In this document: piece by piece, positions 35,140-39,095 of the stretch
How the letters are laid out: each line of letters starts with the position of its first letter
Numbering within the stretch: position 1 is the stretch's first letter
Assembly: GCA_001543015.1 (NCBI GenBank)
Contig: LFLC01000025.1
Span: 1 to 64,000 of the forward strand
Reading direction: 5' to 3'
Length of the DNA: 64,000 nt
Source: Nitrosopumilus sp. LS_AOA
Lineage (GTDB): Archaea; Thermoproteota; Nitrososphaeria; Nitrososphaerales; Nitrosopumilaceae
Position numbers and translations under genes: made by a program
The notes under the pieces: generated by a model
Seen by the model: the letters and a program-made list of their open reading frames with translations, nothing else
The model's database searches: none
What the model was told of the DNA's origin: nothing

Positions 35140-36183
35140 ATGATTTCAGAAATTAATCACACTGAATGGCTAAAACTAAATCAATTCTTGTATGAAATTA
35201 AAAAAATAAACTCACCATGTGTTACAGTTTACTATCCATATGGGAAGGGGAGTGAAACAATCACACTATTACAATCAACAAAAAGAAATGAAACATTTGA
35301 AAAAATTCAAAACAAAATTCAAATCAAAATCAAAGAGTTAAAGAAAAATCCAACATCTGCGGGGAAATTTACAAAGACTCTATGCGTTTTTGGCTGGATG
35401 AATAATGGTAAAGTGGTGATTAAACAAATTGGAACCTCAAAAAAATTACCATACATCTACATGGCATCAAAAAAACCATACATCAAACCATTCAATGACA
35501 TTCTAAAGACAAACTATGATGTCCTGCTAGTTACCATTGATCAAAAGACTGCAAAAATCCAAAAATTTCATGGAGAGCAAATAATTCAAGAATCAAAGTT
35601 GAGAATTGATTTACAAGGAAGGCATAGAAAAGGCGGTCAGTCTCAAGGACGATTCCTTAGAGCCAGGCAGACAAAAATTCATGTATTTTTCAAAAAAGTG
35701 GCAAACAAAGTCAGATTACTGGATGATAATTCAGATTTGATATTACTTGGAGGAGCAGGTATTGCAAAAACGGAATTCTTTGATGAAATAGATTCAGAGT
35801 TAGCAAAAAAAGTCAGGTTTGTAGAGGAGTTATCATTTTCAACTACTCAAAACAAAATTTATGAAAAAATCATAAAACATCTTTACCAGTATAGAAAAAA
35901 ATATGTTGCAGAAATTATTGCCAAGTATGAAACACTAGTCAAAGACGGACTAACTGCAAAAAGAAATGATGTAATCTACAAGGCATTACAAATTGGTGCA
36001 GTAGATACTCTAATTGTGTCAATGGATTATCACAATAATGTACAATTTAAAAAAATTATACAAATGCTTGAACTAGCAAAAGGTACATCATGTAAAATTG
36101 AATTTGCAGCAGCTAAAAACATTATCAAAAGACTAGAGATTGATAATGAAGTTATAGCAATACTACGTTACAAAATAAAATAA
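35140..36183 (+). CDS. eRF1-like GGQ protein (Vms1/VLRF1-type)
   Basis: The 347-residue protein carries a GGQ-type motif, GRHRKGGQSQGRFLRARQ (Gly165-Gln167), in the position used by eRF1 and Vms1/ANKZF1 to reach the ribosomal peptidyl-transferase centre. It lacks the NIKS stop-codon motif of aRF1, and its N-terminal domain is short. It therefore fits the eRF1-like families that rescue stalled ribosomes by cutting the tRNA CCA end or releasing the peptide. The C-terminal region (about 265-345) resembles an eRF1 domain 3 fold. Archaeal ribosome-quality-control function is inference from family. Confidence 0.8.
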   Translation: MISEINHTEWLKLNQFLYEIKKINSPCVTVYYPYGKGSETITLLQSTKRNETFEKIQNKIQIKIKELKKNPTSAGKFTKTLCVFGWMNNGKVVIKQIGTSKKLPYIYMASKKPYIKPFNDILKTNYDVLLVTIDQKTAKIQKFHGEQIIQESKLRIDLQGRHRKGGQSQGRFLRARQTKIHVFFKKVANKVRLLDDNSDLILLGGAGIAKTEFFDEIDSELAKKVRFVEELSFSTTQNKIYEKIIKHLYQYRKKYVAEIIAKYETLVKDGLTAKRNDVIYKALQIGAVDTLIVSMDYHNNVQFKKIIQMLELAKGTSCKIEFAAAKNIIKRLEIDNEVIAILRYKIK

Positions 36184-36185
36184 AC

Positions 36186-36330
36186 AGAAAGGCACACAAG
36201 ATTAAGACCAACTCCTGTAAGGAACTGATGACATCTTTACCACTTAAGATCAGAAACGAGTTGTTCCTTGATGACAGTGATTTGTCTTAAGGTCTGAAAC
36301 GATTAGTTTCAAACGACAGACGTCCTTTCT
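36186..36330 (+). ncRNA. Structured RNA candidate with duplicated C/D-like boxes
   Basis: About 145 nt are enclosed by a terminal stem AGAAAGG (36186-36192) / CCTTTCT (36324-36330). Inside, AAGGAAC (36219-36225) pairs with GTTCCTT (36263-36269), and GAAAC pairs with GTTTC (36296-36310). A 43-bp direct repeat gives TGATGACA (36226, 36269), CTTAAG, and CAGAAACGA / CTGAAACGA (36251, 36294). TGATGA plus CTGA resemble box C and box D of archaeal methylation guides, with 19 nt between C-like and D-like boxes, longer than usual. It starts 3 nt after the GGQ-protein stop. The class is unassigned. Confidence 0.6.
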
Positions 36331-36480
36331 AATTCTATTATGTGAAGTTCATATTTAACAACTTCTACTATATACTACTTTTAGTTCCAACCGATCAAGC
36401 ATCAAAAATTATTATTTATATAAAAAATAAAAAAACTTGTCATGTATTTTGAAAATTAATTACTTGTCAAAGAATTTTTT

Positions 36481-38983: not shown

Positions 38984-39071
38984 AGCCCGATAGTCTAGTG
39001 GTCAAGGATTCTGCCCTCTGGATCTCAAGAGTGGATAGGCGGGGACGGCAGTTCGAATCTGCCTCGGGCTA
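38984..39071 (+). tRNA. tRNA-Gln (CTG) with intron
   Basis: Acceptor arms AGCCCGA (38984-38990) and TCGGGCT (39064-39070) pair, with discriminator A at 39071. The T arm is GGCAG-TTCGAAT-CTGCC. The anticodon stem CTGCC (39011-39015) pairs with GGCGG (39038-39042), leaving 22 nt. A 7-nt loop C-T-CTG-G-A plus a 15-nt intron (about 39022-39036) at the canonical 37/38 site explains this. The A1-T72 pair suits archaeal tRNA-Gln. The intron boundary could shift by a base or two. CCA is not encoded. Confidence 0.88.
39022..39036 (+). other. tRNA-Gln intron (predicted)
   Basis: ATCTCAAGAGTGGAT would be removed by the tRNA splicing endonuclease between positions 37 and 38. Exact ends are inferred from the anticodon loop fit. 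Confidence 0.6.
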
Positions 39072-39095
39072 CTGTGAAAATATTTTTTAAAAATT

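Follow-up and report, generated by a model that had tools for sequence, protein, structure and literature searches.

CsrB/RsmY-type sponge RNAs are bacterial RNAs in which one RNA gene presents several copies of one short hairpin, with the motif GGA in the apical loop. Archaeal box C/D sRNAs are characterized by conserved C (RUGAUGA) and D (CUGA) boxes on the transcribed strand, forming a kink-turn, and archaeal H/ACA sRNAs by hairpins with an internal pocket, an ACA box ~14 nt past that pocket, and a kink-turn or K-loop for L7Ae in the upper arm. Few marine microbes are as abundant as ammonia-oxidizing archaea, and our literature search found little on their regulatory RNAs.

The locus described here lies in a window of 64,000 nt (the whole stretch of DNA that was analyzed) and likewise carries several copies of one hairpin, three in number, in a single RNA. 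Compared from general knowledge, it differs from CsrB/RsmY-type RNAs in being archaeal and in that the fixed bases belong to an internal loop, NUC/CUUA. It falls in the size class of box C/D sRNAs and shares hairpins with an internal pocket with H/ACA sRNAs.

The initial annotation recognized no known RNA class in this segment, and this assessment was borne out. When Rfam 15 was searched with the 64-kb window and 15 homologous loci, tRNAs were the only families to reach the gathering threshold, and all sub-threshold matches had E-values of at least 0.06. A literature search, with subscription papers outside its scope, turned up no such RNA in any title or abstract, and passages of PMC2864571 and PMC3088659 describe none. 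The Tan1 RNA found in a Red Sea metatranscriptome (PMC5069720) comes from Euryarchaeota and is a different RNA.

Structure and strand of the element

The segment had originally been proposed, from a reading of the plus strand, to be a strong structured RNA. The structure is upheld and the strand is not. Folding of the minus-strand segment yields -45.0 kcal/mol (z -4.43), with 0 of 200 shuffles as good, whereas the plus-strand segment folds weakly to moderately (z -1.61; 15 of 200 shuffles equally good). The predicted minus-strand fold, a closing stem enclosing three tandem hairpins, is identical to the structure derived from comparative data, and each hairpin contains the same 3x4 internal loop, 5' NUC / 3' CUUA. 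The features of the locus are as follows.

36186..36330, minus strand: three-hairpin small RNA gene of about 145 nt (minus-strand fold; 125.5-bit match to covariance model R1)
36324..36330, minus strand: 5' side of the closing stem, AGAAAGG, pairing with 36186-36192 and covarying, e.g., ACAAGACC/GGUUUUGU in L019
36186..36192, minus strand: 3' side of the closing stem, CCUUUCU (fold and comparative data)
36284..36321, minus strand: hairpin 1, GUCU-GUC-upper stem with apical loop UAAUC-CUUA-AGAC (alignment and fold)
36240..36280, minus strand: hairpin 2, lower stem UCACU/AGUGG, internal loop GUC/CUUA (alignment and fold)
36198..36237, minus strand: hairpin 3, lower stem AAGAU/AUCUU, internal loop GUC/CUUA (alignment and fold)
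36351..36358, minus strand: TTAAATAT, resembling a TATA box, 20 nt upstream of the closing stem's first base, kept in nearly all homologs
36362..36380, minus strand: upstream conserved block, consensus TAGTAGGAAAAAGTAGTGC, here AGTAGTATATAGTAGAAG (homolog alignment)
36166..36185, minus strand: T-rich stretch GTTTATTTTATTTTGTAACG after the RNA, a probable terminator judged by sequence, overlapping the convergent GGQ gene at its end
35140-36183, plus strand: gene for a GGQ-containing eRF1-domain-2-like protein (Pfam eRF1_2, baeRF_family10, acVLRF1)

Read as a TATA box, TTAAATAT stands at the usual archaeal spacing from the RNA start. The strings on which the earlier proposal was built are in place: AGAAAGG at 36186 and CCTTTCT at 36324, AAGGAAC at 36219 and GTTCCTT at 36263, TGATGACA at 36226 and 36269, CTTAAG at 36243 and 36286, CAGAAACGA at 36251, and CTGAAACGA at 36294. 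An internal direct repeat also exists, its best form having 29 of 43 identities at an offset of 43. The repeat units number three rather than the two of the suggested duplicated core, the third being 36198-36237.

Comparative support for the structure

Homologs were sought by BLASTN in 60 relatives. Most of the 36 genomes from the same genus have them (a few matches are to the neighboring GGQ gene instead), and none was found in 24 genomes of other families. Two covariance models, R1 for the triple RNA and R2 for one hairpin unit, were trained on sequences from these genomes, and their E-values derive from a shortened calibration on short random sequence. Full-length R1 matches are present in most same-genus genomes; low-scoring matches (around E 1e-5) were left out of membership.

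In an alignment of 23 homologs in the minus orientation, the three-hairpin consensus pairs 91.5% of cells, and 25 of its 48 pairs show two-sided changes. This level of pairing was reached by 0 of 500 shuffles, which do not keep the relatedness among sequences. The signal collapses when the structure is slid by one column, a control that favors the structure because the consensus was hand-written from the same 23 sequences. For example, one pair in the lower stem of hairpin 2 changes from A-U to G-C in 9 genomes, and hairpin 1 has the stem GUCUGA/UCAGAC in place of AUCAG/CUGAU. Similarly, 10 of the 11 pairs in the single-hairpin model R2 show a two-sided change. Both 7-bp stems named in the initial annotation can be judged by the same data: the closing stem AGAAAGG/CCTTTCT covaries across homologs, whereas AAGGAAC/GTTCCTT proves to be a chance match, with 49.4% of cells paired compared with 48.9% in shuffles (23 homologs).

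When the hairpin stems are read on the minus strand, G-U pairs number 64 and A-C pairs 9; reading the plus strand swaps these counts. Because G-U pairs greatly outnumber A-C pairs, and because the TATA-like box lies upstream on the minus strand, the minus strand is strongly supported as the coding strand of the triple RNA. Positions 36186-36330 are therefore almost certainly a structured RNA of that strand. The complementary strand reads UAAG/GAN with N variable, which we take to resemble the UAA/GAN internal-loop motif; however, by the G-U/A-C counts and the promoter, UAAG/GAN is here the non-transcribed strand.

The same strand assignment bears on whether the RNA might guide methylation (box C/D) or pseudouridylation (H/ACA). 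Plus-strand TGATGA and CTGA strings, along with the pocketed hairpins, speak for this interpretation. However, TGATGA lies on the non-transcribed strand, its TGAT being one side of a covarying stem and its last bases part of the internal loop, and neither string is conserved as a box. Conserved C and D boxes are missing from the transcribed strand, and strand, structure, and conservation all depart from those of archaeal box C/D sRNAs. As for H/ACA sRNAs, an ACA follows the hairpin in 9 of 66 cases (14%) compared with 18.6% of background windows, and the apical loops are of 4-5 nt. The pocket sequence does not vary, as that of a guide would from target to target, and no Rfam family other than tRNAs matched. 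As judged from these alignments, a guide RNA is already contradicted by the comparative data and seems extremely improbable.

Other known motifs were considered by inspection. The upper arms of the hairpins end in 4-5 nt loops such as UAAUC, and since no tandem G-A was seen on either strand, a kink-turn appears unlikely. A hammerhead was suggested by the core-like plus-strand sequence CUGAUGA...GAAAC and was also rejected, because the stem needed beside the core fails to form in unit two and because this sequence lies on the wrong strand.

Neighboring genes

The GGQ gene is convergent with the triple RNA and ends 3 nt from it, and this proximity to a ribosome-rescue-like gene had been taken as suggestive. 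The link fails in relatives: of 23 homologous loci, just 1, that of the host genome, has GGQ next to the RNA, and in genome G007 its homolog lies ~32 kb from the RNA. A functional association was rejected because GGQ is not kept at this position. The triple RNA instead has a geranylgeranyl-reductase-like (GGR-like) gene as neighbor in ~20 loci, and in 16 the gene on its opposite side is nitroreductase-like. Elsewhere in the window, a tRNA-Gln (CTG) gene at 38984-39072 on the plus strand is 89 nt, longer than usual, and possibly contains an intron.

Single-hairpin genes and their promoters

Dispersed hairpins were found with a DNA pattern and then with R2. Loci outside the triple RNA in the host genome are C12:78792-78834(-), C31:22274-22316(-), C37:36028-36070(-), and C52:77209-77252(+). 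Five dispersed single hairpins were folded and gave z-scores between -4.4 and -5.6. The unit comprises a lower stem of 4-12 bp and an upper stem of 5-9 bp, often with one bulged base. Among single hairpins, the 3' side CUUA is kept in 64 of 65, the 5' side is NUC with N being G, C, U, or A, and G-U pairs exceed A-C pairs by 31 to 6.

The small apical loop AC-(U)AAUC-GU is frequent in single-hairpin genes and in hairpin 1. Together with the several copies per genome, this recurrent UAAUC could point to regulatory antisense RNAs whose exposed loops pair with mRNAs. Such a role seems quite unlikely to us, however, since the fixed bases lie inside the stem and the apical loops of hairpins 2 and 3 vary among aligned homologs.

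The sequence [CT]TAAATA occurs within 75 nt upstream of 41 of 68 hairpin loci, most often at a distance of 32-34 nt from the model start; among background windows its frequency is 1.3%. This enrichment supports the view that hairpin genes carry their own predicted promoters; a promoter-pattern scan of the host genome returned mostly background. Across relatives, single hairpins have diverse neighbor genes in mixed orientation, which argues against a cis element, although 12 of 68 lie <150 nt before a same-strand gene and some of these could be leader elements. We conclude that the hairpin RNAs very probably constitute a free-standing gene family.

A genome can have as many as 18 hairpin matches, and upstream blocks are common to unrelated sites within one genome, so the hairpins might also be viewed as a MITE-like element, mobile or repetitive DNA that spreads with its upstream region. 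However, two loci keep their neighbors across species or genera: one single-hairpin locus has the same convergent neighbor in g1, g24, and g25, and the triple RNA keeps its place next to the GGR-like gene, a pattern of vertical inheritance. Moreover, the distance to the TATA box is fixed, and covarying stems that prefer G-U over A-C are not expected from selection on DNA alone. A mobile element is thus a poor prospect as an explanation.

Distribution

Strong R1 matches to the triple RNA occur in g1 and g25. In g37 (L223) the triple form has another closing stem, UUACAAGG.../...CCUUGUAA, and g34 (L212, L213) has two tandem hairpins. Hairpins of any form were detected with R2 in 152 of 250 genomes and in 11 of 22 genera of Nitrosopumilaceae; some same-genus genomes rated >90% complete have no match. 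In a class-wide sample of 250 genomes, 98 of 99 matching genomes belong to Nitrosopumilaceae and one to f8 (G360).

The exact consensus pattern was present on 66 contigs from 84,980 named genomes, all thaumarchaeal or archaeal by title except one labeled Phycisphaerae, which is probably mis-binned. The label of another matching contig, Nitrososphaeraceae (F1_bin.41, 17,643 bases), is probably wrong. A viral origin of the hairpin was rejected, given 0 exact matches to the pattern in viral contigs. In the genomes searched, the hairpin RNA family is almost confined to one archaeal family, Nitrosopumilaceae.

Proposed function

On balance, we lean toward a reading in which the minus-strand small RNA gene is the three-hairpin member of an RNA family whose hairpins serve as docking sites, the triple RNA acting as a sponge or scaffold. 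The triple RNA would be a free-standing gene transcribed in vivo. The same unit occurs in single-hairpin RNAs with their own promoters, in two-hairpin RNAs of some genera, and in the three-hairpin RNA. Every hairpin could then offer a docking site to a single shared partner, probably a protein that binds RNA. Two observations point this way: fixed sequence is largely limited to the internal loop, the stems for the most part preserving pairing alone, and the hairpin is reused at valencies of one, two, and three in free-standing genes. The triple RNA may sequester this partner as a multivalent sponge or scaffold, comparable in function to CsrB-type RNAs. The protein docking and sponge step is tentative, with the chances slightly against it.

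Counting against docking, a fixed internal loop also fits a small-molecule aptamer or a tertiary contact. The hairpin might therefore bind a small molecule or ion, making the RNAs free-standing sensors or buffers, and freely covarying stems around a fixed loop suit such a role. Nevertheless, free-standing aptamers are rare, and the diverse neighbors give the hairpins no consistent place before the genes of one pathway. An aptamer consequently appears unlikely.

Extending the docking proposal, one RNA-binding protein might be controlled by dedicated hairpin RNAs with one, two, or three sites, each RNA with its own promoter, as an archaeal post-transcriptional regulon. This extension is rather doubtful; if true, archaea that abound in the sea would have their own, independent equivalent of the bacterial Csr system. 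The conserved gene family, with several RNA genes in each genome that share a fixed internal-loop signature, offers a direct handle for a partner search, and the covariance models can be used to annotate hairpin RNA genes in other genomes.

Additional hairpin contexts

Several hairpin loci have distinctive surroundings. In L094, L108, L111, and L126, a hairpin lies ~49 nt before a conserved same-strand gene of 127 aa and is possibly a leader element. The g34 genomes (L212, L213, L214) have a conserved GUCCGAAGGUUCAUCACCUG leader upstream of their hairpins. In two g33 genomes (L088 and L220), an elongation-factor-2-like gene ends a short way before the hairpin, and after the hairpin comes a conserved GGUUCAG..CCCGAGGGGAAACUCAAGUCUGA stretch, possibly a further structured RNA domain. 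In g36 (L210, L211), the genes on both sides of a single hairpin appear to resemble phasin genes in sequence.
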